The notes beneath the pieces are model-generated. The model saw only the letters and a list, made by a program, of their open reading frames with translations. It was not told the origin of the DNA and searched no databases. Shown here one piece after another: positions 22,527-27,595 of a stretch of DNA of 64,000 bases (its first letter is position 1; every line of letters starts with the position of its first letter). A program made the translations under genes and the position numbers. Source of the DNA: Betaproteobacteria bacterium Ga0077527 (GTDB lineage Bacteria; Pseudomonadota; Gammaproteobacteria; Burkholderiales; SG8-41); contig LNDW01000018.1 in the NCBI GenBank assembly GCA_001464815.1, forward strand, positions 1 to 64,000. Direction: 5' to 3'.

Positions 22527-23132
22527 TTACTGCGGCGTATAGATCACGATCAGCGCCTTGGCCTCACCACCCAGGCCGCGACCGCGGTGCGGAATCCGCG
22601 ATTCAAAGTAGAGGCTGTCTCCGGTTTCGAGCGTCCATTTGCGCGAGGCGCCGTCGATTTCCATTTCCCATTCGACACGGCCGCTTAGGATCAGCAGGAA
22701 TTCCTCGCCTTCGTGCTCGAAACGCGCCTCGCTGCTGATGTCGGTGGGGAAGGTGAACAGGAAGGGCTCCATGTGCTTGTGCCGCTTCTTGTGCGCGAGG
22801 CTGACGTAGTCATAGCCGAAAGCACTGGCGCCGCGCACTTCCGGCCGCCGCTCATTGACGCGCACGATGCTCATTGCATCGTCGTAACCGTCTCCCGAGG
22901 CTTTGAGGAATTCGGTGATCTCAACCTGCAGCGCCTGGGCGATTTTCACCAGCGTGCCGATCGGCGGCACGATATGCCCGTTCTCGATTTTCGAGACATA
23001 ACCCTTGGTCACGCCGATGGCGTCGGCGAGCTGTTCCTGGGTCAGGTTGCGGCCGGTGCGCAGCGCCCCGACGCGGGTGCCGATGGTGCGCTCGATGTCG
23101 CTGGAGGTGCTGGCGGGGTGGGAGGAGCTCAT
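22527..23132 (-). CDS. XRE-family regulator with C-terminal cupin domain
   Basis: 201 residues from the ATG at 23132. The helix-turn-helix is near residues 15-70 (LTQEQLADAIGVTKGYVSKI), and a cupin ligand-sensing domain lies at about 120-198 (FEHEGEEFLLILSGRVEWEM). Members of this group (PuuR/SutR-like) sense small metabolites and regulate adjacent catabolic or transport genes. Its start codon overlaps the stop of the DJ-1/PfpI gene by 4 nt. Two matching palindromes in the upstream divergent region are candidate operators. Confidence 0.93.
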   Translation of the reverse strand: MSSSHPASTSSDIERTIGTRVGALRTGRNLTQEQLADAIGVTKGYVSKIENGHIVPPIGTLVKIAQALQVEITEFLKASGDGYDDAMSIVRVNERRPEVRGASAFGYDYVSLAHKKRHKHMEPFLFTFPTDISSEARFEHEGEEFLLILSGRVEWEMEIDGASRKWTLETGDSLYFESRIPHRGRGLGGEAKALIVIYTPQ

Positions 23133-23758
23133 GCGGATTTCAGTGTTGGCAGGCGAGTGTGATTGGCGGCGCGGGCGGCGCCGTATTCCATGATACGTGC
23201 AGTTTCGGAGGCCACTTCGGCGCCGAGCAGGCGTTCGAGCAGATACAGCGTGACGTCGATACACAGCGTGACGCCGCCGCCGGTGACCACCAGCCCGCTG
23301 TCGGCGAGCAGCGCGGGGCGGGCATCGACCCGCGGATATTCATCGTGCAGGCGTGCGAGCGGCGGCACTTCGCGGCCGGCAATCACTTCCTGCTTGGTGG
23401 TGGCGATGCGGCCGTCGAGCACGCCGCTGGCGGCGAGGATCATGCCGCCGGTGCATACCGCGGCAACCAGCATCTGCTGATTAACACAGCGCCGCAGGTA
23501 ATCCAGCGTTGGCGTGTGTGTGCATTGCGCTTCCCAGCCGGGGCCGCCGGTGACGATCAGCGCATCAAAGGCCGGCGCGTCAGCCATGCCGTGGCGTGCG
23601 ATGACATCGAGCTCATTGGCGAAACGCACCGTGCCGGCTTTCGCGGCCACGGTGGAGATACGGATCTGTGGTGCGACGCGACGCGCCATCGACAGCACGC
23701 CATAGGTGCCGAGGTCGATCGGCTCCACGCCGTCATAGATAAAGATGCCGAAATGCAT
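23129..23758 (-). CDS. DJ-1/PfpI-family protein (GATase1-like)
   Basis: 209 residues from the ATG giving MHFGIFIYDGVEPIDLGTYG. The nucleophile elbow is AVCTGG with Cys102, and an upstream Glu/Asp pocket (YDGVEPIDL) is typical of the DJ-1/PfpI superfamily, which includes isonitrile hydratases, glyoxalase III types and the N-terminal half of some AraC regulators. No DNA-binding domain is fused here. It is coupled to the XRE-cupin regulator (ATGA overlap), so both are expressed together. The reaction is unknown. Confidence 0.88.
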   Translation of the reverse strand: MHFGIFIYDGVEPIDLGTYGVLSMARRVAPQIRISTVAAKAGTVRFANELDVIARHGMADAPAFDALIVTGGPGWEAQCTHTPTLDYLRRCVNQQMLVAAVCTGGMILAASGVLDGRIATTKQEVIAGREVPPLARLHDEYPRVDARPALLADSGLVVTGGGVTLCIDVTLYLLERLLGAEVASETARIMEYGAARAANHTRLPTLKSA

Positions 23759-23798
23759 ACACGAACTCCGTAATTGCTGGCCGCACCGATTCAGTGCA

Positions 23799-23821
23799 AT
23801 AGTTTCCTGAAAAGAAACTTT
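23799..23821. promoter_or_regulatory. Candidate operator 1 (XRE-cupin regulator)
   Basis: Palindrome with arms ATAGTTTCCT and AAGAAACTTT around a 3-bp spacer (GAA). The arms fit the same consensus (AAAGTTTCCT and its complement) as the site at 23928. It lies 41 nt upstream of the DJ-1/PfpI start, suited to autoregulation of the DJ-1/XRE operon. Confidence 0.6.
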
Positions 23822-23919
23822 TTGGTGCATACTGTTTCTGCGTTTGCACCGTGATGAGTCAGTTTCATAGGGAAAATCTGAGAAAGCAGGGCATGTCCGA
23901 AAGATACACCAAAGAAGTG

Positions 23920-23948
23920 TTGACTATAAAGTTTCCTGTGAGGATACT
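23920..23948 (+). promoter_or_regulatory. Promoter of the TRAP receptor gene
   Basis: TTGACT (23920-23925) and GATACT (23943-23948) with a 17-bp spacer, a good sigma-70 match. It is overlapped by the second palindrome. Confidence 0.65.
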
Positions 23949-23950
23949 TT
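23928..23950. promoter_or_regulatory. Candidate operator 2 (XRE-cupin regulator)
   Basis: Palindrome AAAGTTTCCT, spacer GTG, AGGATACTTT; 9 of 10 paired positions match. It occupies the -35/-10 spacer and the -10 box of the promoter facing the TRAP receptor gene, a classic repressor position. Confidence 0.65.
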
Positions 23951-24062
23951 GCCCAGCAGGTTTGGTTTATTCAAAGCGACCGGGACAGGTTGTTCCCCAC
24001 CTCAACAATACAACCGCAGCTGTGCAACGGAGGAGTCGCCAACCCCTATGGAGAGCAGACTC

Positions 24063-25214
24063 ATGAAACAGCAAGACCCGAAGCAGAAGTCCCCGGCGGT
24101 TGCAGAGGCGCGTCCCGCGCGCCGCCGTTTCCTCGGCGTTGCCACAGCCGCCGGCACGGCAGCGATTGGTTTTCCTTTTATTGCCCGCGCGCAAGCCCCG
24201 GTCATTAACTGGCGCTTTCAGAGCACCTGGCCGGCGAAGTTCCTGTATCAGGAATTTGCAGTGGACTGGACCAGGAAGGTGATGGAGCTCTCCGGTGGCC
24301 GCCTGAAGATCGACATGCTCCCGGCGGGTGCGGTGGTGCCGGCGCTGCAGATTGTTGACGCCACCAGCAAGGGTGTCATAGACGGCGGCCACGGCCTGCC
24401 CGGTTTCTGGTTCGGCAAGAACACCGCCTTTGGCCTGTTCGGCGCCGGTCCCGACTTCGGCATGGATGGCAATCAACTGCTCGGCTGGATTGAATACGGC
24501 GGCGGCAAGGAGCTTTATGCGGAAGTCCAGGCCGCGGCACAGCTTGATTCGGTCAGCTTCCTGTTCGCGCCGGTGCCCTGCGAGCCGATGGGCTGGTTCA
24601 AGAAGGAGATCAAGACCACGGCTGACTTGAAGGGTCTCAAGTTCCGCACCGCCGGTCTCGCCGTGGACATGTTCAAGGAGCTGGGACTGTCATCGGTGCA
24701 GATGGCGCCGCCCGACATCGTACCGGCGCTCGACCGCGGCCTGCTCGACGGCGCCGAATTTGCCAGCGCCTCCGATGACCGCATCATGGGTTTCCCCGAT
24801 GTCGCCCGGTTCTACCTGCAGCAGAGTTACCACATGGCCAACAACTTCTGCGAGGTGATGATCAATCGCAAGCGTTATGAAGCGCTGCCCGATGACCTGA
24901 AAACCGTGCTCAAGCTCGCCTCGCAGGCGGCCAGTGCCGACATGGAATGGAAGGCGATGCACCGCATGTCGCAGGATTACCTCGAGCTGAAAAAGAACCC
25001 CAAGCTGCGCATCTACAAGACACCGAAGCCGATCCTCGATGCGCAGCTCAAGGCCTGGAATGCGGTGATCAAACGCCGCTCTGCGGAAAACCCGCTGTTC
25101 GCCAAGGTGGTGGCTTCGCAGATGGCCTGGGCGAAGCGGGTGATGTTCTGGCACAACGAAGTGCAGGTCGGCCAGGCCGCCGCCTATGCCCATTATTTCG
25201 GGAAGGGCGCCTGA
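24063..25214 (+). CDS. TRAP transporter substrate-binding protein (DctP family), Tat-exported
   Basis: 383 residues from ATG 24063 (GGAGAG 8 nt upstream). The N-terminus has a twin-arginine signal (PARRRFLGVATAAGTAAIGF), then the DctP fold beginning INWRFQSTWPAKFLYQEFA. Such receptors bind organic acids for Na+-driven TRAP transport. The DctQ and DctM membrane genes are missing on both sides, so this is an orphan receptor. It is divergent from the XRE-cupin/DJ-1 operon and probably regulated by it. Confidence 0.92.
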   Translation: MKQQDPKQKSPAVAEARPARRRFLGVATAAGTAAIGFPFIARAQAPVINWRFQSTWPAKFLYQEFAVDWTRKVMELSGGRLKIDMLPAGAVVPALQIVDATSKGVIDGGHGLPGFWFGKNTAFGLFGAGPDFGMDGNQLLGWIEYGGGKELYAEVQAAAQLDSVSFLFAPVPCEPMGWFKKEIKTTADLKGLKFRTAGLAVDMFKELGLSSVQMAPPDIVPALDRGLLDGAEFASASDDRIMGFPDVARFYLQQSYHMANNFCEVMINRKRYEALPDDLKTVLKLASQAASADMEWKAMHRMSQDYLELKKNPKLRIYKTPKPILDAQLKAWNAVIKRRSAENPLFAKVVASQMAWAKRVMFWHNEVQVGQAAAYAHYFGKGA

Positions 25215-25319: not shown

Positions 25320-25787
25320 ATGGCTGATTACGACAAGCGCTTGCAGGAACTGGGCATCACCCTGCCGCCGGCCGCCGCGCCTGTGGCGAACTACGTCGGT
25401 TACACCGTGTCGGGCAACCTGGTCTTTGTATCCGGGCAGTTGCCGTTCGAGGACGGCAAGGTCGCGGTGCAGGGCCGTGTTGGCGCCGGACCCACGGTGG
25501 ATGACGGCTATCGCGCCGGGCGGCTGTGCGCGCTGAACCTGCTGGCACACCTGCGGGCCGCCTGCGGCGGCAGCCTGAACAAGGTCAGCCGCGTGCTGCG
25601 CCTCGGTGGTTTTGTCTGCGTCGCGCCGGATTTTTACGACGCGCCGAAGTGCGTCAATGGCGCCTCCGACCTGATGGTCGAGATTTTTGGCGACGCCGGG
25701 CGCCATGCACGTTTTGCAGTGGGTGTGGCAACACTGCCGGCGAATGCCGCGGTCGAAGTCGATGCCACTTTTGAAATCCAGGCCTGA
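25320..25787 (+). CDS. RidA/YjgF-family protein (long form)
   Basis: 155 residues, about 30 longer than canonical RidA, matching the longer YjgF-like subgroup. Conserved features include LVFVSGQLPFEDG and the late stretch FAVGVATLPANAAVEVDATFEI. The Arg that binds substrate carboxylate in true RidA (usually in an R-x-x-V-x-V strand) is not obvious: the corresponding region reads HARFAVGVATLP. It may therefore not be a classical enamine deaminase. Preceded by GGAAGAGGAATGAAGC. A second, shorter RidA is at 59235. Confidence 0.88.
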   Translation: MADYDKRLQELGITLPPAAAPVANYVGYTVSGNLVFVSGQLPFEDGKVAVQGRVGAGPTVDDGYRAGRLCALNLLAHLRAACGGSLNKVSRVLRLGGFVCVAPDFYDAPKCVNGASDLMVEIFGDAGRHARFAVGVATLPANAAVEVDATFEIQA

Positions 25788-25810: not shown

Positions 25811-25852
25811 TATGCCCTCACCCCCGACCCCTCTCCCGAAGGTAGAGGGGGG
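25811..25852. repeat. GC-rich extragenic repeat (CCCTC/GAGGG type)
   Basis: Tract with CCCTCACCCCCGACCCCTCT followed by CCGAAGGTAGAGGGGGGG. It forms an imperfect CCCTCT/AGAGGG hairpin. The same family appears in frame within mfd at 30003-30045. This class of dispersed repeat is common between genes in proteobacteria. Confidence 0.6.
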
Positions 25853-25908: not shown

Positions 25909-26757
25909 ATGAATGATCCGATCATCCGCTACTTTGGCTGGTCCAGCCTGTCGATCGAGACGGCGGACGGCGCGCTGTTCTTTGATCCCTTTTTCCGTCA
26001 TTACTGCGGCGCGCAGTGGTTCGACATCGACGATTACCTGCACGCCAAGTACATCTGTGTCACCCACGGCCACGAGGAGCATTTCCTTGATGTGCCGGTG
26101 GTCGCCAAACGCACCGGCGCCACGGTGATCGGGCCGAAGTCGGTGACCGACTTCCTCGCCTGGCGCAGCAGCCTGCCGCGCGACAAGCTGGTGACCGTCG
26201 ATACCGAATCGGTGAGCACGCTGCCCGGCTTCAAGGTCAGTTCCTTCCGCTGGAAACACCGCGACATCAATCTGGTCAAGGCGCTGTCGAAGGCGGTGTT
26301 TCACGGCAATGCCACCCAGCTCGCCTGGGCCTGGAGCAGCGCGACCAACGCGCCGTTTTACTCGCCGTACACCGGCTACCACGTCGAGCTGCCCGGCGGC
26401 CTGACCGTGCTCAACTACAACGAAGGTTTCAACACCAAGATGACCGACGCCGAGATCACGGCGCTGGGCAAACGTTTCCGCACTGATGTGCTGCTCGCCG
26501 GCATGCAGCTTGATTTCACCGCCGACATCACGCGTGGTGTGAAGGCGCTCAACCCGAAAATCGTCGTGCTCTATCCGCCGCACGACAAATTTCACGAAAT
26601 GATGGGTGTCAGTTCCAAGCCCTGGGCCGATTTTGCGGCCGCGGCCAGCGCGGCGCTGCCCAGTGCGAAGGTGCTGATCGCCGATCCGGGCTTTGTGATG
26701 AATGCGGCGACGGGTGAGGTGCTGCCGTCGCGACCCAGCGTGAAGATCGCGGCCTGA
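25909..26757 (+). CDS. Metallo-beta-lactamase-fold hydrolase (UlaG-like)
   Basis: 282 residues from ATG 25909 (TAAGGA upstream). The metal motif reads H53-G-H55-E-E-H58, so the usual Asp before the last His is Glu. Asp26 in FFDPFF and later Asp/His residues (PPHDKFHEM) also fit the fold. The UlaG-like branch acts on lactones, phosphodiesters or related esters, so the substrate cannot be named. It is transcribed alone behind a perfect palindrome and converges on a hydrolase gene. Confidence 0.85.
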   Translation: MNDPIIRYFGWSSLSIETADGALFFDPFFRHYCGAQWFDIDDYLHAKYICVTHGHEEHFLDVPVVAKRTGATVIGPKSVTDFLAWRSSLPRDKLVTVDTESVSTLPGFKVSSFRWKHRDINLVKALSKAVFHGNATQLAWAWSSATNAPFYSPYTGYHVELPGGLTVLNYNEGFNTKMTDAEITALGKRFRTDVLLAGMQLDFTADITRGVKALNPKIVVLYPPHDKFHEMMGVSSKPWADFAAAASAALPSAKVLIADPGFVMNAATGEVLPSRPSVKIAA

Positions 26758-26812: not shown

Positions 26813-27595
26813 TCAGGGTTTTCCGGTTTCCTGTGCCCAGCGCAGGATTTCATCGACCGAGGCGCGCGGCGCTCCGGTATGGTCGGCATCGGGTTCGTAC
26901 AATCGCGAGCGTGGGTTGGCGGGCAGCGCGCGGAAATTGCTGTCCTTGATCTTGCGCAGTGCCGGAATGTCATGGGTCGGCACGATCATCAGCACCGGCG
27001 TTGCCGGACGCACCGCGCGCAGGGAGCGCGTCAGGTTCATCGCACCATCGGGGTCGAACCATGACAGGTAGATCGCCGCCGTGGTGCGCACGGTCCAGCT
27101 GCCCTTGGCGCCCTCGTATTCGAGGAATTCACCGCGTTCATTGCCAAGGCCATCGCTGACCATGCGTCGAGCGCTGCGCACCGCGCCGCCCAACTGCTGC
27201 AGAAACACGAAATGCGCGACATCACCCCCCGGTGCGATGGCGATCAGGCCGTCGACAGGTTGCAGGGTGGCGTAATGCACCGCGAATACGCCGCCCTGGC
27301 TGTGGCCCGCGACAAACACCCGCTTTGCACCCTTGTCACGCAGGGCGCTGATTGCGGCATCAACCTCCTTCACCGCGGTGGCGACATCGACGTCGTATTG
27401 CCGGTCGCGCGACCACGGCATCTGCAGATTGGCGACCTGCCAGCCCTGTGCCTGAAGGCCTTCGGCCAGCGGCCGCACCAGACCCTGCGGCATGCCGCCC
27501 TTGCCGTGCATGATGACAATGCCGTCCTGTGCTGATGCGGACAGTGCCCAGGCCGCCAGCAGCAGCGGGAACAGCAGGTTGCGGAGCGGGTTCAT
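26813..27595 (-). CDS. Secreted alpha/beta hydrolase
   Basis: 260 residues. Signal peptide (RNLLFPLLLAAWALSASA), nucleophile elbow GHSQGG with Ser99, Asp candidate in VPTHDIPAL and late His in DADHTG. The gene lies 18 nt downstream of mfd on the same strand, so it may share its transcript. The substrate is unknown. It resembles the secreted hydrolase at 9343 only in general fold. Confidence 0.85.
   Translation of the reverse strand: MNPLRNLLFPLLLAAWALSASAQDGIVIMHGKGGMPQGLVRPLAEGLQAQGWQVANLQMPWSRDRQYDVDVATAVKEVDAAISALRDKGAKRVFVAGHSQGGVFAVHYATLQPVDGLIAIAPGGDVAHFVFLQQLGGAVRSARRMVSDGLGNERGEFLEYEGAKGSWTVRTTAAIYLSWFDPDGAMNLTRSLRAVRPATPVLMIVPTHDIPALRKIKDSNFRALPANPRSRLYEPDADHTGAPRASVDEILRWAQETGKP

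Follow-up and report, generated by a model that had tools for sequence, protein, structure and literature searches.

Organization of the locus

The window, by which we mean the whole 64,000-nt stretch of DNA analysed here, contains a DJ-1/PfpI gene on the minus strand and a TRAP receptor gene on the plus strand, separated by the intergenic region 23759-24062. The genes and elements of the locus are listed by position.

22527..23132, minus strand: XRE-cupin regulator, 201 aa (Pfam HTH_3, 2.6e-17; Cupin_2, 1.3e-11)
23129..23758, minus strand: DJ-1/PfpI-family protein, 209 aa (Pfam DJ-1_PfpI, 7.7e-13)
23802..23818, no strand: palindromic site 1, operator-like, GTTTCCTGAAAAGAAAC, present in 8/11 regulator-bearing loci
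23824..23850, no strand: inverted repeat GGTGCA...TGCACC between sites 1 and 2, largely kept in the congener alignment
23920..23948, plus strand: receptor promoter with -35 TTGACT, 17-bp spacer and -10 GATACT
23931..23947, no strand: palindromic site 2, operator-like, GTTTCCTGTGAGGATAC, inside the receptor promoter
23982..24015, plus strand: conserved receptor-leader element GGGACAGGTTGTTCCC...AACAATACAACC, locus-specific
24063..25214, plus strand: TRAP (DctP) solute receptor, 383 aa (Pfam DctP, 1e-31)
25320..25787, plus strand: Rid/YjgF-family protein, 155 aa (Pfam YjgF_endoribonc, 3.5e-32)
25909..26757, plus strand: metallo-beta-lactamase-fold (MBL) protein, 282 aa (Pfam Lactamase_B_3, 2.2e-5)

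The regulator combines an N-terminal HTH_3/XRE domain (63 bits; cut-off 23) with a C-terminal cupin (Cupin_2, 44.4 bits; cut-off 27.2), the architecture that defines the XRE-cupin family, and stays far below the cut-off of the PuuR equivalog NF007408 (53.6 bits vs 211). Its nearest PDB sequence is hydroxypropylphosphonate epoxidase (HppE, 1zz6; 1e-10), whose residues 138, 142 and 180, which we take to be metal ligands, align with H140, E144 and H182 of the regulator; these three residues are invariant in 11 aligned orthologues. HppE is an enzyme, whereas a sensor role for the regulator is suggested by its family context. The predicted structure of the regulator is of low quality (pLDDT 66.8; rmsd near 17 to whole chains), and we use the fold search, whose matches include 1y9q, as no more than supporting evidence.

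The DJ-1 stop and the regulator start overlap as ATGA, in line with the coupling of the two genes proposed in an earlier note on this DNA. The DJ-1 protein reaches no NCBIfam cut-off, and its best PDB sequence hit is isocyanide hydratase at low similarity (7.3e-14). At that level of similarity the catalytic residues of the hydratase, presumably a nucleophile Cys and a partner Asp, align in the DJ-1 protein and are kept in 12/12 cases. With 110.8 bits against a DctP (PF03480) cut-off of 23.4, the receptor belongs to the TRAP DctP receptors, and its signal, read by eye, is twin-arginine-like (ARRRFLG).

A pair of like palindromes

Two 21-nt copies that are 81% identical lie at 23801 and 23930, with a start-to-start distance of 129 bp, and sites 1 and 2 alike match GTTTCCT-N3-AGGAAAC at 13 of 14 positions. 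The pattern GTTTCCTNNNARGAWAC has no match besides these two sites when both strands of the 64 kb are scanned. Of 3000 first-order Markov shuffles of this intergenic sequence, 7 contained one or more hits at 12/14 or better and 0 contained two, so that coordinates and shuffles together confirm the twin like palindromes with a 3-bp spacer, about 129 bp apart, that had been described before. Palindromy by itself is common in the window, where 77 positions in 64 kb reach 7/8 pairs with a 3-bp spacer; what is rare is the pair of like sites.

The near matches between the shared arms are likewise real, but the firm part shrinks when the 16 sites of eight loci are compared: the core is GTTTC-N7-GAAAC, with the inner CT/AG weaker and the right arm of site 2 often GATAC. 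With one mismatch allowed, GTTTCCTNNNAGGAAAC has three matches in the 3.4-Mb genome, two of which are sites 1 and 2. The distance of 41 nt given earlier between site 1 and the DJ-1 start holds if longer arms are counted (41-42 nt) but becomes 43 nt when measured from the 17-mer.

A scan of 23700-24100 finds TTGACT-17-GATACT as the sole sigma-70-like promoter under the scan rule (shuffle mean 0.2), and site 2 overlaps most of its 17-bp spacer together with five of the six -10 bases. A palindrome in the intergenic region adjoining the regulator's own operon and at a core promoter, as found here, fits the sequence pattern of XRE-cupin sites.

Conservation of the sites with the regulator

The genus set comprised 21 genomes, the window's own included, and regulator calls at E below 1e-20 gave six genomes. 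In all six loci the DJ-1 and regulator genes face the receptor across a like region that contains both sites. When compared without gaps, each site is invariant at 15/17 columns, and variation is confined to the middle of the sites and to position 7 of site 1 in one genome (G016). The stretch between the sites is invariant at 19/95 columns in a MAFFT alignment; that same alignment put site 1 at 8/17 rather than 15/17, because an extra T next to the site in one locus (L003) shifts the alignment. The promoter is kept as TTGAC(T/G)-17-GATACT in 6/6 genus loci, each with site 2 over the spacer and -10, which bears out the placement of site 2 on the receptor promoter claimed in the earlier note.

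Two further elements of the intergenic region are conserved. The GGTGCA...TGCACC repeat is possibly part of the DJ-1 promoter region or another operator. The leader element is a candidate RNA hairpin or second protein site: 25/35 of its columns (23979-24013) are invariant in the six loci, and GACAGGTTGTTYYC, its left half, occurs as one copy per genome in only 6/21 genus genomes, those with the locus. Rfam gives no match for 23982-24015, and single-sequence folds of the element differ among congeners while its letters hardly vary.

Exact matches to GTTTCCTNNNARGAWAC follow the regulator closely. The 21 genus genomes contain 12, all of them in the six regulator-bearing genomes and 11 at the locus, with none in the 15 genomes that lack the regulator; the G016 locus has one exact and one single-mismatch site. 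The third exact match of the window's own genome (L033:1501-1517) stands 9 nt ahead of the start codon (ATG) of a gene for an aminotransferase (Pfam Aminotran_1_2) and has no exact counterpart outside the locus in any other of the 21 genomes. We treat this match as chance or species-specific and not as a sign of a regulon beyond the locus.

Outside the genus the same pairing persists among close relatives. Both sites are present in 8 of the 11 loci whose regulator orthologue is at least about 50% identical (0/1000 shuffles each), among them an Azoarcus-labelled MAG (regulator 65% identical; sites 118 bp apart) and G449 (about 50%; 111 bp apart). The three loci of family f23 (G427, G317 and G402; regulator 51-54%) retain the left arm only, inside the receptor promoter, and have no clear site 1, their two best hits being equalled in 33-68 of 1000 shuffles. 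At the G280 locus the receptor, DJ-1 and hydrolase genes are present and the sites are absent; there is no regulator beside DJ-1 on that contig, and none at E 1e-30 across the genome, which is 84% complete.

More distant regulator homologues (25-43% identity) were left out of these counts. They amount to 43 loci, 7 of them without a tblastn hit, and the remaining 36 were scanned over 400 nt upstream. The perfect GTTTC-N7-GAAAC core was found upstream of 1/36, and L015 reached 9/10; the motif therefore goes with this orthologue group. A random control (106/3000 perfect) had been drawn from loci holding the sites and was set aside as biased. The perfect core, at L008:2131-2147, is a short way upstream of an XRE-cupin homologue with 32% identity (G037) in a different gene context, and reflects either chance or a remote use of this motif. 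A gene-context check of L007-L011 (short flanks), L114-L120, L122, L123, L125, L126 and L141-L143 gave no match to DJ-1 or the TRAP receptor at any of them.

The search of orthologous divergent regions for the palindrome had been set beforehand as a test, and it found the sites kept in 8/11 loci, an outcome that does not refute the earlier interpretation. Because they are conserved beside close relatives of the regulator, the two palindromes are very probably binding sites of the adjacent XRE-cupin regulator, and the earlier proposal that they are its operators gains backing from both conservation and co-occurrence.

A TRAP receptor without a local permease

A complete TRAP system encodes DctQ and DctM with the receptor, and this locus lacks both: contig C18 has no DctM match, every DctM match of the genome is on other contigs, and the window gives no tblastn match to the DctQ/M of a congener, G006. 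Across the orthologues, DctQ and DctM are missing beside the receptor in 10 of the 11 testable loci, this one included, the twelfth receptor locus being that of the Azoarcus MAG, whose contig ends too early. Profile search and comparison thus bear out the earlier description of the receptor as an orphan. The exception is G006 (L102:4085-6411), in which DctQ and DctM stand directly behind the receptor and before Rid. Since outgroups are without DctQM, gain in G006 is the simpler history, with repeated loss possible. The receptor is 86-94% identical within the genus, and the permease-less type spans at least four families of the order.

The Rid and MBL genes, which the earlier note leaves out, are possibly on the receptor transcript. 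A Rid orthologue follows the receptor in 8/12 loci, namely the window's own, four congeners, G006 (after DctQM), G427 and G402. It was not seen in the G317 or G280 receptor loci, and in G449 a different Rid-like gene, located past the MBL gene, takes its place, as read by eye. An MBL orthologue lies near the receptor in 11/12 loci, which is all that can be judged, as the Azoarcus MAG contig ends before the Rid and MBL positions.

Two side observations concern this flank. An alpha/beta-hydrolase gene (26813-27595) has shifted position within the locus: here and in G016 it is found past the metallo-hydrolase gene, but in G005, G007, G018 and G006 it comes immediately after the regulator. A repeat-like stretch between the Rid and hydrolase genes, CTCACCCCCGACCCCTCTCCCG...GAGGGG (25817-25852), occurs once in the window and could be an interspersed repeat.

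A likely source of permease, also absent from the earlier note, is encoded elsewhere in the same genome, where contig C20 carries a complete TRAP operon in which DctQ and DctM come after a receptor with 47% identity to the one at this locus. The DctQM of G006 belong to the same subfamily as those of this paralogous operon, being 60-72% identical to the C20 subunits. With E no higher than 1e-65 as the threshold, this DctM subfamily is represented in at least 123 of 399 order genomes and in 9/9 with an orphan-type receptor, counts that are lower bounds with at most three candidates scored per genome and the 399 genomes drawn from a larger order. The co-occurrence has a hypergeometric p of 2e-5 by genome and about 0.005 by genus (5/5 vs 56/158), uncorrected for kinship and for genomes that are phylogenetically non-independent.

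Orphan-type and paralogous receptors fall on opposite sides of one branch (98/100) and differ in their predicted pockets. TakP (PDB 2hzk), of the same DctP family as the receptor (E = 7.4e-43), binds cation and pyruvate through Y100, Q156, R177, E214, W215 and E240, with W215 contributing by its main chain, as described in PMC1839085. At these six positions the orphan type reads F, E, R, E, F, M in 12/12 orthologues, and the paralogue reads Y, Q, R, E, F, Q in 8/8 rows, five from the genus and three from outside it that were found through their DctM. In the receptor the carboxylate-binding Arg177 and Glu214 of TakP are kept, whereas Tyr100, Gln156, Trp215 and Glu240 are replaced by F, E, F and M in 12/12 orthologues. 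With only R177 and E214 of the pocket kept (12/12), a TakP-like alpha-keto-acid ligand is rejected. As the carboxylate-binding Arg is retained, the ligand is still likely an organic acid, and judging by the pocket residues it probably differs from the substrate of the paralogue.

Proposed mechanism and alternatives

Given how site 2 sits within the receptor promoter, over its spacer and -10, repression by occlusion of that promoter is the best reading of the regulator's action. The XRE-cupin relatives studied in P. aeruginosa repress mostly at core promoters, and by analogy the regulator should block the receptor promoter at site 2. We propose that a regulator homodimer would bind GTTTC-N7-GAAAC, and that at site 2 it would cover the spacer and -10 and thereby keep RNA polymerase from the receptor promoter. 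Bound at site 1, whose position would suit control of the DJ-1/regulator transcript, it would repress its own expression; this autoregulation we can only infer, because the six genus loci share no sigma-70-like pair at a common position that would mark a promoter for that transcript. A metabolite, probably held in the cupin with a metal on H140, E144 and H182, would release the regulator from DNA and so turn on DJ-1, the TRAP receptor and, behind the receptor, the Rid and metallo-hydrolase genes. The receptor would then deliver an organic acid, other than the ligand of the paralogue, to the DctQM encoded in the paralogous operon. We consider this model as a whole, from the operators through to the borrowed permease, to be likely.

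Several other explanations were weighed against it. The regulator's binding is a prediction from sequence, and another transcription factor could own the palindromes with the XRE-cupin gene a mere neighbour; however, exact sites in the genus are found only in regulator-bearing genomes and are gone at the G280 locus, whose DJ-1, receptor and hydrolase genes have no regulator beside them; we give another owner a very slim chance. It is also rather improbable that the regulator activates, or both activates and represses from its two sites. Site 1 lies at about -137 to -153 from a receptor start guessed at 23955, a range open to activators, and the site spacing is 118-120 bp in 6/8 loci, but site 2 occupies a blocking position over the spacer and -10 in 6/6 genus loci, and in P. 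aeruginosa, according to PMC7901475, the family members whose regulons have been determined act as repressors. Cooperative binding of both sites through a DNA loop between the divergent promoters draws on the same spacing. Like sites lie 129 bp apart in this genome and 118, 120, 119, 118, 119, 118 and 111 bp apart in the other seven loci; 129 differs from 118-120 by about one helical turn, and at 10.5 bp per turn the spacing is in phase within 2 bp in 7/8 loci. G449 (111 bp), however, is about 3 bp out of phase, the loci are few and related, and each site could act alone on its own promoter. The spacing thus speaks neither for nor against looping, which we think unlikely.

For the receptor, the absence of DctQ/M beside it in 10/11 testable loci would also suit a periplasmic sensor or a decaying remnant instead of a transport subunit. 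Against this stand its 86-94% identity within the genus, the identical residues at the six TakP ligand positions in 12/12 orthologues, and the DctQM directly behind the receptor in G006; we give this explanation a minor though appreciable chance. The preferred role is that of a transport subunit that uses the paralogous permease. A wider reading, which we hold tentatively and short of an even chance, is that the locus is a receptor-only uptake module in which a twin-operator XRE-cupin switch controls a receptor that redirects shared DctQM, with F/E/M vs Y/Q/Q marking the change of substrate and with DctQM re-coupled to the receptor in G006.

Relation to known systems

As described in PMC7901475, those XRE-cupin factors of P. 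aeruginosa whose regulons have been determined are repressors; most of their targets neighbour the factor's own gene, and core promoters are where they mostly bind. The motifs known for three of them are all palindromic and quite different from one another, and the hypothesis is that the factors dissociate from DNA when they sense a metabolite. Within this family we regard PsdR of the P. aeruginosa PsdR-DppA3-MdpA system as a close precedent and functionally the nearest. According to the same source, PsdR is, like the regulator proposed here, an XRE-cupin repressor that binds directly at two sites around its own gene, and it controls the substrate-binding protein DppA3, which feeds the permease DppBCDF, together with a processing dipeptidase. 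The receptor there is an ABC-type peptide receptor, whereas here it is of the TRAP type, and the words DJ-1, TRAP and Rid are absent from the main text of PMC7901475.

DbuR of the Pseudomonas putida dbu operon, as presented in PMC12724383, is also an XRE-cupin repressor with divergent gene order; it protects a 20-bp palindrome and the predicted -10, and its targets include a Rid protein and a transporter. It differs in having one palindrome (AATTCTCATATATTAGAATT) and an amino-acid oxidase in place of DJ-1, and that account names a transporter and not a TRAP receptor. Orphan TRAP receptors are acknowledged as exceptions in PMC12344293, and an open-licence literature search found no paper in which three of XRE, cupin, TRAP transporter and DJ-1 occur together.

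Collectively, the operator pair and the regulator look like a familiar kind of local metabolic switch, with the motif now defined as GTTTC-N7-GAAAC. The more general and most interesting point is the conserved permease-less TRAP receptor, for which we now have a candidate regulator, gene neighbours that are conserved in part, a candidate partner permease in the same genome and one relative in which a permease is in place. With candidate partners at hand, the sharing of one membrane unit by TRAP receptors therefore becomes testable.
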